From an uncultured Clostridia bacterium (GTDB lineage: Bacteria > Bacillota > Clostridia > Oscillospirales > Oscillospiraceae): a DNA stretch of 44,746 bases. This document shows positions 23,028 through 44,746 of this stretch, piece after piece; positions within the stretch are counted from its first letter, which is position 1; the number at the start of each line of letters is the position of its first letter. The stretch covers positions 1 to 44,746 of the forward strand of contig CAMONN010000003.1 of the NCBI GenBank assembly GCA_946620645.1, read 5' to 3'. The notes under the pieces are model-generated. The model was not told the origin of the DNA. It did no database searches and worked only from the letters and a program-made list of their open reading frames with translations. The position numbers were made by a program, and so were the translations under genes.

Positions 23028-24944
23028 ATGACAGGCATGACAGGGAAGCAGAAAAAGATGCTGAGGAGCATCGCGCTTTCAGCACTGCTGTTCATACTGG
23101 CAAATGCGGCGCGGAGGATGCTTCCTGCCGGATATGTTCGGGAGGTCATTTCCACCGTTTTATACATGGCATCCTACCTCGTTGTCGGCTACAGTGTTTT
23201 ACGCAAAGCCTGGAAGGGAATCCTGAACAGGAGACCGTTTGATGAATGCTTTCTGATGACGGTGGCAACCCTGGGGGCCATCGCCCTTGCAGTTTACGAA
23301 AAGAGCGGTGACTACAATGAGGCTGTCGCTGTTATGCTGTTTTACCAGATCGGCGAATTCTTTCAATCATACGCCGTGGGGAAGAGCCGGCGAAACATTA
23401 CGGAGCTCATGGATATCCGCCCGGACTATGCCAATATTGAGGCGGACGGAACACTGAAGCGTGTTGACCCGGACGAAGTGGAGATCGGTACGGTAATCGT
23501 GGTGCAGCCGGGTGAGAAAGTCCCTCTGGACGGGGTGATCACGGAAGGCAGTTCTACTCTGGATACCGCTGCGCTGACCGGGGAGAGTGTTCCCCGGGAC
23601 TGCAAGGCCGGAGATGAGGTGCTCAGCGGGTGTATTAATCTCACCGGAGTGCTGAAAATACAGACAACGAAAGAGTTCGGGGAGTCCACAGTCTCAAAAA
23701 TACTGGAACTGGTCGAGAATGCCGGCTCCAGGAAATCCAGATCTGAGGAGTTTATTTCCCGCTTTGCCCGGATCTATACGCCTGCCGTTGTGATCAGCGC
23801 TCTGGCGCTGGCAGTCCTTCCGCCGCTGGTACGGATTCTGTTTCTGGGCCTGCCGGGAGGGTGGCATGTGTGGATCTACCGGGCCCTGACCTTTCTGGTG
23901 ATCAGCTGCCCCTGCGCGTTGGTCATCAGCATTCCGCTGAGCTTTTTCGCCGGCATCGGCGGCGCCAGCCATGAGGGGATCCTCATTAAGGGCTCGATTT
24001 ATCTGGAAGCGCTTTCACAGGTGAAAACGGTTGTGTTTGACAAAACCGGGACCCTGACAAAAGGAGTTTTTGAAGTCAGCGATATCCATCACAGCCCGAT
24101 GGAGGATTCCGAGCTGCTGGAGCTTGCGGCCCTGGCAGAGGCCGCGTCTTCTCATCCCATCAGCAAAAGCCTGCAGCGCGCCCATGGAAGAGAACCGGAC
24201 CGCAGCCGCGTAAGTGAAATTGAAGAGATCGGCGGACACGGTGTTACGGCACTGGTGGATGGTAAACGGGTTGCCGTCGGGAATGACAAACTGATGCGGA
24301 GGCTGGATATTCCTTTTCTGAACTGCCACAGTTCGGGCACGATTGTTCATGTGGCCAGAGACGGAGCCTATGAGGGGCATATTGTCATTTCGGACCTTGA
24401 AAAGCCCGGTGCCCGGGAGGCAGTTACACAGCTGCGCCGGGCGGGAATTGAGAAAATTGTCATGCTGACCGGCGACGGAAACGCGGTGGCCGCCGATGTG
24501 ACGAAGAAACTCGGCCTGGATGGCTACCACGCGGAGCTGCTGCCGGGTGACAAGGTCCGGATCGTGGAGCAGATGATGGCAGAGGAAGGATCCCGGGGCG
24601 GGAAACTCGCCTTTGTCGGTGACGGTATTAATGACGCGCCGGTTCTTGCCCGTGCCGATGTGGGCATCGCCATGGGCGCGCTGGGGTCCGATGCCGCAAT
24701 CGAGGCTGCGGATATTGTCCTGATGGACGATGATCCGGCCAAAATTGCAAAGGGCGTTCGCCTGTCGAGAAAGTGTATCCGCATTGTTTATGAAAATATT
24801 GTTTTCGCTCTCGCGGTGAAGTTCGGCTGCCTGATTCTGGGGGCGCTCGGCATCACAAATATGTGGGCGGCCATCTTCGCGGATGTAGGTGTGATGGTAC
24901 TTGCGGTACTGAATGCCATCCGAGCGCTTCGGGTCCGGGACTGA
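23028..24944 (+). CDS. cadA: Zinc/cadmium/lead-exporting P1B-type ATPase
   Basis: A 638-residue heavy-metal P-type ATPase. It pumps divalent metal outward using ATP. All catalytic motifs are intact: actuator TGES (184-187), membrane CPC (294-296), phosphorylation site DKTGT with Asp338, nucleotide-binding HP dipeptide (376-377), TGDG (from 481) and GDGINDAP (531-538). Lys598 in helix 7 and Asp619 in helix 8 fit the P1B-2 class for Zn, Cd or Pb rather than copper. It lacks an N-terminal metal-binding domain; the separate HMA protein 62 bases upstream fills that role. Two in-frame ATGs (23028 and 23037) share the same purine-rich ribosome binding region. A terminator follows at 25012. Confidence 0.95.
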   Translation: MTGMTGKQKKMLRSIALSALLFILANAARRMLPAGYVREVISTVLYMASYLVVGYSVLRKAWKGILNRRPFDECFLMTVATLGAIALAVYEKSGDYNEAVAVMLFYQIGEFFQSYAVGKSRRNITELMDIRPDYANIEADGTLKRVDPDEVEIGTVIVVQPGEKVPLDGVITEGSSTLDTAALTGESVPRDCKAGDEVLSGCINLTGVLKIQTTKEFGESTVSKILELVENAGSRKSRSEEFISRFARIYTPAVVISALALAVLPPLVRILFLGLPGGWHVWIYRALTFLVISCPCALVISIPLSFFAGIGGASHEGILIKGSIYLEALSQVKTVVFDKTGTLTKGVFEVSDIHHSPMEDSELLELAALAEAASSHPISKSLQRAHGREPDRSRVSEIEEIGGHGVTALVDGKRVAVGNDKLMRRLDIPFLNCHSSGTIVHVARDGAYEGHIVISDLEKPGAREAVTQLRRAGIEKIVMLTGDGNAVAADVTKKLGLDGYHAELLPGDKVRIVEQMMAEEGSRGGKLAFVGDGINDAPVLARADVGIAMGALGSDAAIEAADIVLMDDDPAKIAKGVRLSRKCIRIVYENIVFALAVKFGCLILGALGITNMWAAIFADVGVMVLAVLNAIRALRVRD

Positions 24945-29027: not shown

Positions 29028-30854
29028 ATGAACCGAAGAGACCGTATAAAACTGATCGTCACTCTGCCGCTCAGCTTTTTGCTGCTGCTGACGGTCCTTC
29101 TTCCGACAGGCGTGAGCCCTTTGGCTTTTGCTGAAGAGGAAGGATCTGAGGCGGAGCTTCTTCCGGACGCACCCGAGACTGCGGAAGAAGCAGGTGAGGC
29201 GGAGAATGCCGAGGAGACGGACGACTGGGAGACCCGGCTTTTGCTGATGCTTCAGAAGCGGAATGCAAATCCCGACACCATTGCCGCCGGTTACTACAAT
29301 TTTGCGACCGGGGAGGAGCATTATTACAACGGGGATGAATACCGGGTCAGCGGCAGCATGTACAAAGTCCCGCTGAATATGCTGTTTATGGACTGGATTT
29401 CCGAGGGCAAGCTCACCATGGATGAGTTGATCTCCGGTTATCGGTACTCGGAGCTGCTGGAAGGCACGATCGTTAACTCCGACAATAATTACGCCAAAAT
29501 ACTCTGGGACTATGCGGGAGCGACGATTGAGACGGATCCGCCCTCGACGCTGTATCACCGCTACCGGATCCTGATCGCGCCCCTTATGGGTGAGGATCCG
29601 GAAAATGTGGACGACAAGTATTATGAGAACAATTTCTTCACGCCCCGGCAGATGATTACCTGCCTGCGCCGCTTGTATGACGGAGGCAGCAGATACGACC
29701 GGCTGATCGAGACCATGCAGCGGGCGGAACCGGAAAAATACTTCAAACTGCATGAGCGGCGCTATGATATAGCCCATAAATACGGCTGGTTTGCCGAGGA
29801 CCCGATTCTCTATCTGAATGACTGCGCGCTCTGCTTTACCGATGATCCGATTGCCATCGTGCTTTTTACCACGGGAACGGAGAATGCCTACGGCGTGCTG
29901 GCGGACTACTGCACCCTGATGTGCGAGTACGCTCAGGAAACTCATGAAAAACGCCTCCGTCAGGAACAGGCGGAGGCGGAAGCGATTGCTGCTGCTGAGG
30001 AGCGGGATCGCCTGGAGGCGGAGCGAAAAGCGAAGGAAGAGGAGATTGCCTCTCCGGATGACTCCGCAAGCCCCGGGCCCGAAGTGAACGGCGAAAACCG
30101 CCCGGCTTCAAAACCGGCCGCGGAACAGGTTAAGAGGGGACTCAGTGCCGGACCGGCGTTGGCGCTGGCACTGGTAATGGGCTTCTCTCTGGTGGGGATT
30201 ATCTGGTTTTCACTCCGCCACAGAACGACGAACCTCGCTCTCCAGTACGCCATTGCCGCGGTTGTTTTAACGGCTTTCACCTGTATGCTCTGTCTCCCGG
30301 GCGTCAGCGGCAACAGCTACATTGTATCTTCCGGAGAGGATCCGGCGGATACGGTTGAGGCTTTTTTCCGGGCATTGACAGAAGGAGACTATGCTGCGGC
30401 GGACGGATATCTGGCAAACGGGGCATCCCTCGGCCTGAGCGGAAGTCTCCCGTCGGACACAGTCCGCGGGGCTGCCATGGAGGCGCTGGAGCGCAGCTGG
30501 AGCTACCGGCTGCTGGGAAACAGCAGTGTGGAGAAAACTTCAGCCTGGCAGGAGCTGCAGCTGCAGGTACTGGATTTCGATGCCATGACACCGGATCTGG
30601 AACGGGAGACGAGAGAACAGCTTCTCGCAATGGGAAGGACGATGGCCAGAAGTCAGATTTATGATGAGAACGGGAACTGCCTTCCGGAGGCGGCCGCTCT
30701 GGCTTATGACCGGGCAATGGAGAAGCTGCTGGAAACGCCGCAGAATTACTACAGTTCTGTGGGGCTGCGAATTCAACTGGTACAGACCCGCGACGGCTGG
30801 AAAATTGTTCCAACCGAGGCGCTGCTCAGGGCCCTCAGCGGGAATCCGGACTGA
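29028..30854 (+). CDS. Secreted class A beta-lactamase-like serine hydrolase fused to membrane and NTF2-like domains
   Basis: A 608-residue protein of unusual make-up. A signal peptide (1-35) is followed by an acidic linker, then a penicillin-binding-type domain (about 67-300). This carries SMYK (Ser110, Lys113), SDN (151-153) and KYG (251-253) in place of KTG, the class A beta-lactamase-like triad. Next come a charged coiled-coil (about 304-340), a Pro/Ser-rich linker, two membrane helices (about 374-395 and 403-424), and a C-terminal region (about 438-600) with an EAFFRALTEGDYAAADGYL start like DUF4878/NTF2-type domains. Both soluble domains should be outside the cell, joined by a helical hairpin. 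A role on peptidoglycan is plausible; resistance to antibiotics is not implied. It ends six bases from a convergent gene. Confidence 0.75.
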   Translation: MNRRDRIKLIVTLPLSFLLLLTVLLPTGVSPLAFAEEEGSEAELLPDAPETAEEAGEAENAEETDDWETRLLLMLQKRNANPDTIAAGYYNFATGEEHYYNGDEYRVSGSMYKVPLNMLFMDWISEGKLTMDELISGYRYSELLEGTIVNSDNNYAKILWDYAGATIETDPPSTLYHRYRILIAPLMGEDPENVDDKYYENNFFTPRQMITCLRRLYDGGSRYDRLIETMQRAEPEKYFKLHERRYDIAHKYGWFAEDPILYLNDCALCFTDDPIAIVLFTTGTENAYGVLADYCTLMCEYAQETHEKRLRQEQAEAEAIAAAEERDRLEAERKAKEEEIASPDDSASPGPEVNGENRPASKPAAEQVKRGLSAGPALALALVMGFSLVGIIWFSLRHRTTNLALQYAIAAVVLTAFTCMLCLPGVSGNSYIVSSGEDPADTVEAFFRALTEGDYAAADGYLANGASLGLSGSLPSDTVRGAAMEALERSWSYRLLGNSSVEKTSAWQELQLQVLDFDAMTPDLERETREQLLAMGRTMARSQIYDENGNCLPEAAALAYDRAMEKLLETPQNYYSSVGLRIQLVQTRDGWKIVPTEALLRALSGNPD

Positions 30855-39530: not shown

Positions 39531-39606
39531 TTGATTTGGAACATTTTGTATTTTTTGAGAAAACTTCATCTTCCCGGGCCTGTTCCGGGAGATAACGGGA
39601 GATGTG

Positions 39607-40416
39607 ATGGAACTGAAAACGGAACTGAAGACCGGTATTGAGAATGAACAGATCGAGGGCCGGAACGCCGTTACCGAAGCCCTTCGGGCCAATCGGCCGC
39701 TGGACAAGCTTTATGTTGCCGCCGGTGACACCGACCGCACCCTTGGTTTCATCACCACAGTTGCCCGGAATAAAGGCATTCCGGTGACCGAGTGCGACCG
39801 GCGGAAGCTTGACGCCATGAGTGTGACCCATGCGCATCAGGGCGTGATTGCCGTGTGTGCCGTTCAGGAAACCGTGACGGTACAGGACATTCTGGAGTGC
39901 GCGCGTGCCCGGGGTGAGGATCCCTTTGTGGTGGTCTGCGATGAGATCACCGACAGTCACAATCTCGGGGCCATTATCCGCTCGGCGGAATGCGCTGGCG
40001 CCCACGGCGTCGTGATTCCGAAGCGCCGCAGTGCGGGCCTCACTGCTGTTGTGAATAAGGCCTCGGCCGGCGCGGCGGAGCATCTGCCGGTAGCGCGGGT
40101 TTCAAATCTCAGGGCCGCTCTGGACGAACTGAAAAAAGCCGGTGTGTGGATCTACGGCACGGCGGCGGACGGAGCGAAGAATCTTTGGCAGACGGATATG
40201 ACGGGTCCTGTTGCACTGGTCATCGGTTCCGAAGGCGGCGGTATGGGAAGGCTGGTGCGTGAATCCTGTGATTTCATCGTATCTCTTCCTATGAAGGGGA
40301 AGATTTCTTCCCTGAACGCGTCGGTAGCCGGAGCAATCGTCATGTATGAGATTCTGCATCAGCGGGAAGCATCAGGGGCCGAAAGCCCTGTGGACGCCGG
40401 AACGGGGGATCTATGA
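39607..40416 (+). CDS. rlmB: 23S rRNA 2'-O-methyltransferase RlmB (SpoU family)
   Basis: A 269-residue SPOUT methyltransferase, probably methylating the ribose of a 23S rRNA guanosine. The N-terminal L30e-like substrate-binding domain (about 15-90) starts IEGRNAVTEAL. The three SpoU motifs follow: DSHNLGAIIRSAECAGAHGV, VALVIGSEGGGMGRL and the knotted end LPMKGKISSLNASVAGAI. ATG at 39607 is preferred over GTG at 39604, since GGGAG is six bases ahead. Its stop overlaps the next start (ATGA), so it is coupled to the large pseudo-ATPase gene. Confidence 0.94.
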   Translation: MELKTELKTGIENEQIEGRNAVTEALRANRPLDKLYVAAGDTDRTLGFITTVARNKGIPVTECDRRKLDAMSVTHAHQGVIAVCAVQETVTVQDILECARARGEDPFVVVCDEITDSHNLGAIIRSAECAGAHGVVIPKRRSAGLTAVVNKASAGAAEHLPVARVSNLRAALDELKKAGVWIYGTAADGAKNLWQTDMTGPVALVIGSEGGGMGRLVRESCDFIVSLPMKGKISSLNASVAGAIVMYEILHQREASGAESPVDAGTGDL

Positions 40417-43400
40417 AGCGGAGAAGAGGAAAGAAAAACACCGGAGAACCCCGGCTGCAGGTTCCCCAGGCGGAAGAGTATACCGTTGATGAGATCCTGT
40501 CCGAGTTCCGTGAGAAGTATGATGATCCGGAGGCGTTGGACAGTGCGGCTCCGGATATGGTGCCGGCCGGGTCAGAGGTAGTCTCTGCCGCCGCCGGGCC
40601 CGAAGCGGCTCCGGAGGAAGCGCCGGACCTGAACGACGACATCAGTTTCGAGGATCTGTGGGCGGATCTGTCTGTTCGCGATGCCGATGATGCAGCTGCG
40701 GGGAAAACAGAGGAGGCCGCTCCTGATGCGCAGCCCGCTCCTGATGAGGTGTCCGTTCCCGATGAGGTGCCCGCCCGGGAAGAAACTGCTCCGGAAAAGA
40801 CCGATGAAAAGGACACTCTGAACTTCGATCTGCCCTATTCCCTCCGGGACATTATGCGGGATTTCAGGAGCGACGGCGAGGCCTCTCCGTCCGAGACGTC
40901 GGTGGACTGGAGTCAGTATGACCTGAAGGAAAACTCCGCCCCTGGGGAGTCCGCACCGGCGGAGGAACCGGCGGATGATCGTCTGGACTTTTCCGCCGGA
41001 GCGCTCCGCTGGGACGGGGAGAATCAGCCGGACGAAAAGCCTGTGCCGGAGGCCGATGCGCCGGCAGACAGCAACCCTGCCCTGAACGAGGCGCCTCCCT
41101 CAGGAAGAAAAGTCGGAAAAGTCTGGGAAGACTTTCCCGATGAGCCGTCACCTTCAGAGGAGCCTTTTGTCGACAACCTGGACTATTCGGCGCTGTTTAA
41201 GATGTTTGCCAGTGAGCCGGGTACCGGTCATCAGAGTCCTCCGGGAGAAGCGCTCCCGGGCGGAGCGGATGAGCCGGATGCCGCAGGCTTGAATTCTGAT
41301 GAGATACTGGACTCCATTGAAAGCCGCGCAGCCGAGCCGGCTGAAGCGGTGCAGACGGACCGGAAGGAAAAGGCCCCGCTTCTCGCAGACCGAAATGATG
41401 AAATGGACTTCCGGGATATTCTGCGGGAGTTCATGCTTGGGGACCAGCACCCCATTTACTCCGGAACCCCGGGTATTGACGGAAAAACTGCGGAAGATGC
41501 CCGCACAGGGGAGGAGTCCCCGGCCGGGGACTCCGCAGGAGAGTATACCGTGCCCGCTGTAAGGCCCCGCCGCCGGCGGGAATACAACGTGAAAGAGGAG
41601 TTCCCCCCGGAGCCGGAGGATTCGGTTTCTGACGTCAGCGGGAATGCCGATGCGCCTTCTGAAGATCGCGCGGCTGACCGGGCGCCGGATGCTTCCCAGC
41701 CTCCGGAATCCGTTGGCCAGAATGAGCCTGCAGCGGATGAAGCGGAGCAGGAGGCGGAAGAGAGCGGTTTTCGCAGCCGCCTGAAGAACATCCTTGCCGG
41801 ACGGAGCCTGCGCACCGGACATACCCGGAGGCGGGAGAAGGCGCTGAATGAGCCTGCGGGCTATGTAGGATACGAGGACTATCTGCCCAGCGAGGAGCAG
41901 GCGAAGGCTGCGCAGGCTGCTGCGGATTCCCGGGAAGGTGCCCATTCCGCACCCGATGAGGGTGAGCCCTCCGGCAGCCTCAGCGAAACCGAGGGCGGCG
42001 TCCCCCGGCCGGAGCCGGAGGAGGATTCCCGCCTGAGTGCGGAAGACGGACCTTCCGACGACGAGCTTCTGGACTATGAGGCCGATTTCCCGAGCTTTGG
42101 CCAGTGGATTCTCAATGAGCTGATGAATCTCTGGATTCGCCTGAACGGAGTAGGAGACCGTCAGAGCACCGCCACGATGGAGGATGAGCGGGAAGACCCC
42201 GGTCCGGAAATGAATGTGGCGGCGGCCTCCCGTTATTACGGTTCTCAGGTTACCATGCTGCGGATGAGGTTCCAGCTGGGGCTTGCGCTTCTGGCGGTCC
42301 TGGCCTACATCACACTGGGCTTCCCGGTCAGCGGCATGCTGAAGACCGCGAAGGTCGCATCTGCTGTCTGCCTTGGCCTGCAGATGACGATTTTACTGCT
42401 TTGCCTGGACGTGGTGACCAATGCGCTGATGAACATCTTCCGCGGCCGCTTCGGTGCGGATGGCCTGGCGCTGCTGGCCTGTGTGATTACCAGCTTCGAT
42501 GCCCTGGTGGTGGCGGTAGGCGGTTTTGGGACCCCCCATATCCCTCTGTGCCTGTTTTCAAGCCTTGCCATGATGGGTATTCTCTTCTCTTCGCTGCTTT
42601 CAGCCCGGGCTCTGCGTAAATCCACCCGGGTTCCGGCCATCGGCAAACGCGCCTACTGCGTGACGGCTGAGGAGGGGGTGCGCGGCGGCAAGGATATTAC
42701 CCTGCTCAAGTCCATCCGGCCGGTGACGGGATTTGTGCGCCGTTCGGAGGAAGCTCCGCCGGATGAGATATTCTATAACCGTTTCGCTGCTCTGGCACTG
42801 CTGGCAGTGCTGCTGCTGTCACTGCTGACCGGTATTGTCAAGCACAGCATGTCCGATTTCCTGTACATTCTTTCGGCCATGCTGACCTGCACCGTCCCGG
42901 TGACGGCGCTCTCCGCCTTTGCGCTGCCCTTCTTTGTAGGCTCCCAGCGTATTTTCTCCAGCGGTGCCGCTGTTGCCGGCTGGTCCGGCATTCATGATAT
43001 CGGCGCCAGCCGGAATCTGATTGTTACCGACCGTGATCTTTTCCCGGAGGATACCATCAGTATTGAGACCGTCCGCGTCTTCGCAGACGAGAGTGCCGAG
43101 CGGGTGATTGCCTATGCGGGTACCATGATTGCCGCCTCCGGCTCCGGTCTCGGCCCCTGCTTTTCCGAGCTGATGGAGCGCAACGGCTGCCGTATGCGTC
43201 AGGTGGAGGACTTCCAGTGGCTCTCAGGCGGCGGACTTCAGGGACATATTGAAGGGCACACGGTGCTCTGCGGCAGCTCGGATCTGATGCAGCTGATGAA
43301 TGTGAAAATCCCCTACCGTCTGGTGGACCGCACCACGGTGCTGCTGTCTATCGACGGCGTGCTGTACGGCATTTTCAAAGTGGTGTACACGGCGCAGCCT

Positions 43401-43829
43401 GAGATTCGAAGCGCTCTCCAGGAGCTGATCGCCTCCAACCGCCATCCTATTTTCGCCGTGCGGGACTTCAATATTACGCCGGACATGCTCCATGAGGTTT
43501 TTGATGTGGCGACAGACGGGTACGACTTTCCGCCCTACGGGGACCGCTTCCGCATTTCGGAAGCGCAGCCGTCGGAGACCAGTAAAGTTTCCGCTGTAAT
43601 CTGCCGGGAGGGCCTGGGACCGCTGACACATCTGGCCGATACCGGACGCAGTATGTATGTGGCTGTGCGTCTGAATCTTCTGGTCACCATTCTTACCGCT
43701 GTACTTGGGACGCTTCTGGTTTTCTTCCGGCTGATCGGGCCGGGGCTGCTGAATGCCTGGCTGCCCTTTGTGCTGATGCTGTTGGACCTGATTATTGTGA
43801 CGATGATCACGGTGTTTATGCGTTTCTGA
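40413..43829 (+). CDS. Pseudo-P-type ATPase with long disordered acidic N-terminal arm
   Basis: A 1138-residue protein. Residues 1-600 are low-complexity, rich in Asp, Glu, Pro, Ala and Ser, and hold at least three copies of a short amphipathic motif: YTVDEILSEF (23-32), YSLRDIMRDF (142-151) and MDFRDILREF (331-340), with looser copies near 78 and 259. Residues 601-1138 have about eight membrane helices (617-640, 648-672, 684-705, 710-735, 788-808, 815-845, 1085-1106, 1112-1135) and a cytoplasmic region placed as in P-type ATPases. The DKTGT site is replaced by TDRDLFPED (872-880), TGD by AVRDFN (1015-1020), GDGxND by CREGLG (1064-1069), and CPC by CTVP (826-829). DGY...P.GD..RI.E (1035-1050) still matches CadA of this window. 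I infer a catalytically dead ATPase acting as scaffold or sensor. Coupled to rlmB by ATGA. Confidence 0.8.
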   Translation: MKRRRGKKNTGEPRLQVPQAEEYTVDEILSEFREKYDDPEALDSAAPDMVPAGSEVVSAAAGPEAAPEEAPDLNDDISFEDLWADLSVRDADDAAAGKTEEAAPDAQPAPDEVSVPDEVPAREETAPEKTDEKDTLNFDLPYSLRDIMRDFRSDGEASPSETSVDWSQYDLKENSAPGESAPAEEPADDRLDFSAGALRWDGENQPDEKPVPEADAPADSNPALNEAPPSGRKVGKVWEDFPDEPSPSEEPFVDNLDYSALFKMFASEPGTGHQSPPGEALPGGADEPDAAGLNSDEILDSIESRAAEPAEAVQTDRKEKAPLLADRNDEMDFRDILREFMLGDQHPIYSGTPGIDGKTAEDARTGEESPAGDSAGEYTVPAVRPRRRREYNVKEEFPPEPEDSVSDVSGNADAPSEDRAADRAPDASQPPESVGQNEPAADEAEQEAEESGFRSRLKNILAGRSLRTGHTRRREKALNEPAGYVGYEDYLPSEEQAKAAQAAADSREGAHSAPDEGEPSGSLSETEGGVPRPEPEEDSRLSAEDGPSDDELLDYEADFPSFGQWILNELMNLWIRLNGVGDRQSTATMEDEREDPGPEMNVAAASRYYGSQVTMLRMRFQLGLALLAVLAYITLGFPVSGMLKTAKVASAVCLGLQMTILLLCLDVVTNALMNIFRGRFGADGLALLACVITSFDALVVAVGGFGTPHIPLCLFSSLAMMGILFSSLLSARALRKSTRVPAIGKRAYCVTAEEGVRGGKDITLLKSIRPVTGFVRRSEEAPPDEIFYNRFAALALLAVLLLSLLTGIVKHSMSDFLYILSAMLTCTVPVTALSAFALPFFVGSQRIFSSGAAVAGWSGIHDIGASRNLIVTDRDLFPEDTISIETVRVFADESAERVIAYAGTMIAASGSGLGPCFSELMERNGCRMRQVEDFQWLSGGGLQGHIEGHTVLCGSSDLMQLMNVKIPYRLVDRTTVLLSIDGVLYGIFKVVYTAQPEIRSALQELIASNRHPIFAVRDFNITPDMLHEVFDVATDGYDFPPYGDRFRISEAQPSETSKVSAVICREGLGPLTHLADTGRSMYVAVRLNLLVTILTAVLGTLLVFFRLIGPGLLNAWLPFVLMLLDLIIVTMITVFMRF

Positions 43830-43875: not shown

Positions 43876-43956
43876 GCGTAGGATAGTGTTTTTTTAACGG
43901 TTTCGCGTTCAAACGCGGTGAATCTACTATTTCGACGAACAGAGAGGAAGCAAAAC

Positions 43957-44746
43957 ATGGAAAGTAAGAACATTCGCAACATTGCCCTCCTCGGGCACGG
44001 AAACAGCGGCAAGACCAGTCTGGCAGAGAGTATGCTTTATGTCACCGGTGCGACGGACCGTCTCGGCAAAGTGACGGATGGCAACACGGTGTGCGACTAT
44101 GACGCGGAAGAGATCAAACGGCAGATTACAATCTCGTCGTCCCTGGCACCGGTCAGCTTTGCCGGAAACAAAATTAACGTGATTGACTGCCCGGGTTATT
44201 TTGACTTTGTCGGCGAAGTGCTGTGCGCTCTGCGCGCCGTGGAAGCCGGTGTGATTCTCTGCTCCGCCAAGGACGGGATCTCCGTCGGTGCTGAACGCAG
44301 CTGGAAGTATTTGAAGGCGGCCGGCCTGCCGACGGCTTTTGTGATTTCCAAATGCGATGAGGAGCATGGTGATTACTTTGCGGTTGTGGAAGCCCTTCGC
44401 GCAAAGTACGGCAGCATCGTGGCGCCTGTGACGATTCCCACATCGGACGGCAAGGGTGTTATTGACCTGGTGCATAATGTCTGCTATATGACCAGCGGCG
44501 CCAAGAGCACCAAGGGTGCCGTTCCGGCCGCCGATGCCGGCCATGTCGAGGATCTCCGTATGGAGCTTATGGAAACCGCCGCCGGCGCCACCGAAGAGCT
44601 GATGGAGAAGTTCTTTGACACCATGGAGCTGGACGAGGCTGACATGGTCGCCGGAATCCGTGCCGGAATGAAGGACCGCAGCGTGATTCCCGTGTTTGCC
44701 AGCTCCGCCATGCAGAACATCGGCACCGAAGCCTTCCTGCAGGGCA
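43957..44746 (+). CDS. EF-G-like translation GTPase, EF-G-2 type (partial, cut by window end)
   Basis: The first 263 residues of a translation-factor GTPase are visible. The G domain has P-loop GHGNSGKT (from residue 14), a switch I region TDGNTVCDYDAEEIKRQIT like EF-G, and G3 DCPGYFDFVGEV. The G4 element reads SKCDEE instead of NKxD, and the histidine that normally follows PG in G3 (DTPGHVDF) is Tyr. The PGY form is known from EF-G-2/FusA2-type paralogs, so this is probably not the main elongation factor. GAGGAAG lies six bases before ATG. The rest of the gene lies outside the window. Confidence 0.85.
   Translation, partial: MESKNIRNIALLGHGNSGKTSLAESMLYVTGATDRLGKVTDGNTVCDYDAEEIKRQITISSSLAPVSFAGNKINVIDCPGYFDFVGEVLCALRAVEAGVILCSAKDGISVGAERSWKYLKAAGLPTAFVISKCDEEHGDYFAVVEALRAKYGSIVAPVTIPTSDGKGVIDLVHNVCYMTSGAKSTKGAVPAADAGHVEDLRMELMETAAGATEELMEKFFDTMELDEADMVAGIRAGMKDRSVIPVFASSAMQNIGTEAFLQG

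Follow-up and report, generated by a model that had tools for sequence, protein, structure and literature searches.

P1B-type heavy-metal ATPases such as CopA, ZntA and CadA (NCBIfam TIGR01525) share with the protein described here a predicted core of eight transmembrane (TM) helices, the arrangement of the P and N domains and the fold of the N domain, and the sequence match between them is weak but significant. Our protein differs from these pumps in having none of the DKTGT, TGE, GDGxND and CPx motifs, with the GDGxND loop deleted, in keeping only a remnant of the A domain, and in carrying a long arm where the pumps have HMA domains. A second point of comparison is provided by bacterial pseudoenzyme families, for example pseudokinases, in which members across a broad group keep their fold after losing the catalytic residues (PMC12599244); the catalytic loss and wide conservation are the same, whereas the fold is different. 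No pseudoenzyme with a P-type ATPase fold was found among the portion of literature-search matches considered, nor any paper on such a protein among their titles and abstract openings.

We describe this protein from a window of 44,746 nucleotides, the whole stretch of DNA analysed, of an uncultured Clostridia bacterium. Sequence comparison and structural modelling give good support to its descent from a P1B ATPase as a pseudoenzyme kept by selection across one order, presumably Oscillospirales. We propose, with a probability of roughly 0.6, that this pseudo-P1B-ATPase (hereafter pseudo-pump) has been kept across the order as a membrane-anchored scaffold or receptor with docking peptides. The study of P-type ATPases has been a study of pumps. 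Here, a dead member that matches no Pfam family occurs almost throughout an order of gut bacteria and keeps a single gene as its neighbour, a pattern that suggests a core membrane function not yet recognised.

Predicted fold and catalytic motifs

The pseudo-pump is encoded on the forward strand (40413..43829, 1138 aa, ATG start), and its ATG overlaps by 4 nt the frame of the upstream neighbour rlmB (39604..40416, forward strand), a SpoU-family 23S rRNA 2'-O-methyltransferase (Pfam SpoU_methylase, E 3.2e-43). Downstream on the same strand, an EF-G-like GTPase frame (43918..44746) continues past the window end. The protein divides into an N-terminal arm (residues 1-601; 40413..42215, forward) and a head with eight TM helices and a predicted P1B-ATPase fold (residues 602-1138; 42216..43826, forward). 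A Pfam search of the full 1138-aa protein returned zero matches at E<=1, and the arm model contains no folded domain, leaving no sign of an HMA metal-binding domain at the N-terminus; a PHROGs search also found nothing. TIGR01525 matches head residues 782-1008 at E 6.7e-8, with 31.8 bits against a model cut-off of 346, and a PDB sequence search gave five weak matches, every one a copper ATPase (best E 0.0017).

The initial annotation had recognised a P-type ATPase-like topology in the C-terminal half, and structure prediction agrees: the modelled head adopts a P-type ATPase fold with the eight-TM P1B topology rather than some other fold. Its predicted N domain (residues ~881-992; 43053..43388, forward) matches that of CopB (3skx) at 2.1 Å over 111 residues. 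The A domain has shrunk, in the model, to a two-strand remnant within ~40 residues between M2 and M3, located by predicted structure and row alignment at residues ~749-767 (42657..42713, forward) and lacking TGE. The block DGY..P.GD..RI.E, which had been taken as common ground with the CadA of the window (23028-24944), does sit at the equivalent place in that pump; its GD is by eye mostly V-E in genus orthologs, so the block is weaker evidence for kinship than first held.

The joint loss of catalytic elements, also claimed at the outset, is borne out. DKTGT, TGE, GDGxND and CPC are all absent from the window protein by sequence and alignment, and the segment LIVTDRDLFPE (residues 869-879; 43017..43049, forward) replaces the DKTGT phosphorylation loop in sequence comparison. 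The CadA of the window has CPC, DKTGT, TGD and GDGIND, and the cell therefore also has a likely working P1B pump. Nor is the window protein simply the decayed copy of a gene that is intact in the relatives checked, as DKTGT stands at its place in 0 of 35 loci (18 from the genus and 17 from other families). We aligned 69 rows, comprising the window and 68 loci (six loci repeat a genome, so that 62 genomes besides the window's are covered; rows L057 and L205 are incomplete). The phosphorylation motif DKTG, the A-domain phosphatase motif TGE[ST] and the Mg/hinge motif GDGxND, whose loop is deleted in the alignment, occur in 0/69 rows each, as does the M4 ion-binding motif CP[CHS] (CPC/CPH/SPC criterion), with SPC in 1/69 (L199). 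Looser strings, counted without placing each one individually, comprise DKT in 6 rows, TGD in 5, [ST]xHP in 5, GDG in 1 (L067) and the single SPC. At the TGD position, D-F-N-[IV]-T-P or D-P-N-[IV]-T is common by eye. Judged from these alignments, the catalytic loss is old. Taken together, alignments and predicted models show a protein that retains the membrane core and the N-domain fold and has lost the motifs for phosphorylation, dephosphorylation and ion binding as well as the Mg/hinge motif.

The replacement segment raises the question of whether a divergent ATPase remains active through the Asp of TDxDLFP. An Asp lies at or beside the phosphorylation site in most sequences, by eye and in an alignment that is ambiguous by one residue at the phosphorylated Asp, and the loose pattern D-x-x-[LIVMFY]-[FYL]-P is present in 39/69 rows (searched anywhere, with most at the phosphorylation loop by eye). 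However, this Asp is shifted by one or missing in some sequences, for example L062, and KTGT, TGE and GDGxND, the last with its whole loop, are lacking; we consider residual catalysis of this kind very improbable.

Distribution, selection and linkage to rlmB

A profile search carried the comparison across the relatives. The pseudo-pump profile matched 152 of 157 genomes of the order with a best E <1e-50, and all 24 sampled families were represented; the remaining five genomes had best E values of 1e-20 to 1e-34, and we assume these to be ordinary P1B pumps. The 157 genomes are at least 85% complete, except for the window's own at 57.5%. Samples of the class (196 genomes, 9 matches) and of the phylum (249 genomes, 3 matches) yielded matches all within the same order; scoring in both was confined to the top 5-7 first-look candidates of each genome, so that single misses are possible. 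An ortholog was found in 28 of the 36 genus genomes; the listed completeness would predict ~6 without a match, close to the 8 observed.

The head evolves at dN/dS 0.045-0.147 across 8 pairs. Divergence is faster in the arm, with partial saturation. With dS at 0.7-1.6 in the head pairs and infinite in 3/8 arm pairs, these ratios are rough. The spread over 24 families and the low dN/dS lend support to the proposal, made from the window alone, that selection maintains a non-pumping role. A pump in decay, on its way to a functionless pseudogene, would likewise have lost its catalytic motifs, and two damaged copies exist: in G016 (G016:C167:3313-4762) the frame is split in two with an internal TGA in the second piece, through either mutation or assembly error, and the matched frame of G057 contains one TGA. 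Against decay stand the mostly intact frames in the 152 matched genomes, a head dN/dS of 0.05-0.15 rather than near 1, and replacement segments common across families. Distribution, shared replacement segments and purifying selection on the head lead us to reject decay, to which we assign a negligible chance.

Coupling to rlmB extends far beyond the window. Among 150 listed places in the order, 140 have rlmB upstream on the same contig and strand, at a median of 760 nt from the head with the arm in between; the test required the rlmB end to lie <4.5 kb before the head, and intervening genes were not excluded singly. The 150 places omit G047 (E 5.8e-58) and G187 (E 2.9e-57), both counted among the 152 matched genomes. 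In the 10 unlinked places, some of them at contig ends, rlmB is on another contig (7) or has no listed place (3). A genuine exception is G037, where the pseudo-pump follows an Obg-like frame. Of 80 named loci in close relatives, 75 have an rlmB-like frame in the same orientation, recognised by sequence motifs and not by family search, and in the other five the ORF begins within 139 nt of a contig end. An EF-G-like gene lies downstream at 13/35 loci, at one of these on the other strand.

This conservation bears on the hint in the initial annotation that the pseudo-pump is expressed with translation genes, and on a fuller version in which the protein anchors ribosome biogenesis or translation to the membrane together with RlmB and the EF-G-like GTPase. 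Besides the two neighbours, this reading can draw on G095, G159 (genus g50), G120 and G134, which have a match for neither rlmB (at 1e-25) nor the pseudo-pump. The double absence reflects either joint loss or a shared assembly gap, and neighbouring genes are expected to go missing together from incomplete assemblies. Moreover, gene linkage need not mean co-function, the two genes are separable in G037 and in G062, where rlmB is present without the pseudo-pump, and the arm motif described below is also found on LspA and NAGPA-like proteins. We therefore keep the linkage itself and regard a translational anchor as distinctly unlikely; the rlmB link is only genomic, and demonstrates neither that the two proteins act together nor that the pseudo-pump takes part in translation.

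The N-terminal arm and its repeated motif

The arm was originally described as disordered, and pLDDT values in its AF2 model fall below 50 at residues 1-22, 40-459, 461-491, 508-559 and 579-605. The mean pLDDT is 46.8 on an alignment of only 14 rows, and disorder is thus suggested and probable, not proven. Short helices are predicted at residues 25-36, 79-84, 259-265 and 333-343, among others. The claim of at least three motif copies is upheld: YTVDEILSEF (residues 23-32; 40479..40508, forward) coincides with the first of these helices and MDFRDILREF (residues 331-340; 41403..41432, forward) with the last, and YSLRDIMRDF (residues 142-151; 40836..40865, forward) has no predicted helix. These three strict copies score 24.5-27.1 against a PSSM built from the genus arms, the window arm included, compared with a maximum of 14.1 in 1000 shuffles of the arm.

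A recognisable arm is present in 78 of 81 genus proteins. The originally proposed motif, searched as a regular expression, occurs 67 times in these 78 arms as against 0.25 times in shuffled arms; at least one strict copy is found in 48/78, and none in 30/78. Outside the genus, five of 60 arms shorter than 30 aa were left out. Of the remaining 55, 26 have their best PSSM site among residues 1-80 at p<0.05, where ~3 are expected, with examples such as FSIDDILAEF, FSLEDILAEF and YSVDDILAEL; the other 29 lack any site reaching this threshold in that stretch, at least L056 being clipped at a wrong start. Recurrence near the N-terminus in other families makes one N-terminal copy look ancestral, and parts of the genus appear to have multiplied it. 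The shuffle comparisons and this recurrence together reject a chance origin of the motif.

The arm is not kept everywhere. In family f10, frames are only 541-564 aa in 12/12 genomes (G045, G068, G085, G099, G113, G126, G138, G151, G161, G171, G181 and G191), with hardly any arm; the arm is thus dispensable in f10, and these head-only versions suggest that in this family the head serves some function by itself. This observation also fits a ligand or metal sensor, channel or regulator, in which the old membrane pathway and N domain would bind a ligand, the head would signal and the arm would be secondary. The well-preserved membrane core and N domain favour such a protein, as does the M4 proline, mostly retained by eye in multi-locus alignments. 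Yet CP[CHS] is absent throughout the alignment, no signalling part is seen downstream, and the N-terminal motif recurs over many families, all of which make a sensor or channel rather unlikely in our assessment.

Motif-bearing ends of LspA and NAGPA-like proteins

We return to the preferred reading, a membrane-anchored scaffold or receptor with docking peptides. A DNA pattern for the motif matches three places in the window's genome: the pseudo-pump, the last codons of LspA (signal peptidase II) and a probable chance site. Genus LspA proteins carry a tail of an estimated ~145-250 residues, low-complexity and rich in Ala, Pro, Lys and Glu, that ends in [FY][SD]L[DE]DILxEF[KR] in 15/17 closed frames (loci L161:430-1524 and L238-L256); two more genus frames are cut by contig ends and stand outside the 17. 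In other families the C-terminal motif is found in 0/9 LspA frames. The tail thus ends in F[SD]L[DE]DILxEF as in the pseudo-pump arm, whereas LspA is an enzyme of unrelated fold and its motif is single and C-terminal. A NAGPA-like membrane protein (L186, L187, L190 and L266-L288), phosphodiester-glycosidase-like by eye, has the motif ahead of its N-terminal hydrophobic segment in 12/30 loci, and in the window's own genome this protein (L284) bears YDLEDILAEF. The names LspA, NAGPA-like, Obg-like and EF-G-like, and those of the proteins set aside below, were read from sequence and not from family searches. LspA and N-terminally anchored proteins usually have a topology by which the LspA C-terminus and the NAGPA-like N-terminus would be cytosolic.

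The same motif at the ends of two further membrane proteins adds support to the original suggestion that short linear motifs dock a repeated partner, and it is from motif sharing that we infer the docking part of our explanation. The cytosolic head would offer a binding platform, and the arm would present amphipathic [FYML]-S-[VLI]-[DE]-[DE]-I-L-x-E-[FY] peptides. These might dock in cis on their own head, where P1B pumps carry metal-binding domains, or alternatively onto a shared cytosolic partner; in the genus, LspA and the NAGPA-like protein with the same peptide may be drawn to the same dock. An extended history, which we put forward tentatively and hold to be somewhat doubtful, is that the pump fold became a non-catalytic membrane hub in the ancestor of the order, and that the head or a fixed partner became the receptor for a DDIL-type docking code that began on its own arm and in one genus was subsequently acquired by LspA and the NAGPA-like protein. 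Such a hub, if real, would bring unrelated membrane proteins to one site. Two genomes, G009 (G009:C38; 65% complete) and G014 (G014:C22; 71% complete), have a motif-bearing LspA (L184, L185) and no pseudo-pump match, which speaks against the head as receptor if the gene is truly absent. The shared motif provides a direct handle on a putative partner linking LspA, the NAGPA-like protein and the dead pump.

In 38 other genomes of the order, a strict pattern matched the pseudo-pump N-terminus eight times (assigned by coordinates, with two read). It also hit five other sites, of which four lie in folded proteins and one in an unlikely frame; with so strict a pattern, the majority of these genomes gave no match. 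Matches set aside as probably due to chance lie in folded proteins, namely GyrA/ParC-like (L178, L195), EF-Ts (L168, L169), ABC1-kinase-like (L170), NTP-pyrophosphohydrolase-like (L175), DprA-like (L197) and SGNH-like (L162), and in the unlikely frames L177, L181, L183 and L196.

Elsewhere in the window, a 608-aa frame (29028-30854), the remainder of which has no confident match, begins with a Beta-lactamase2 domain (Pfam E 8.5e-15).
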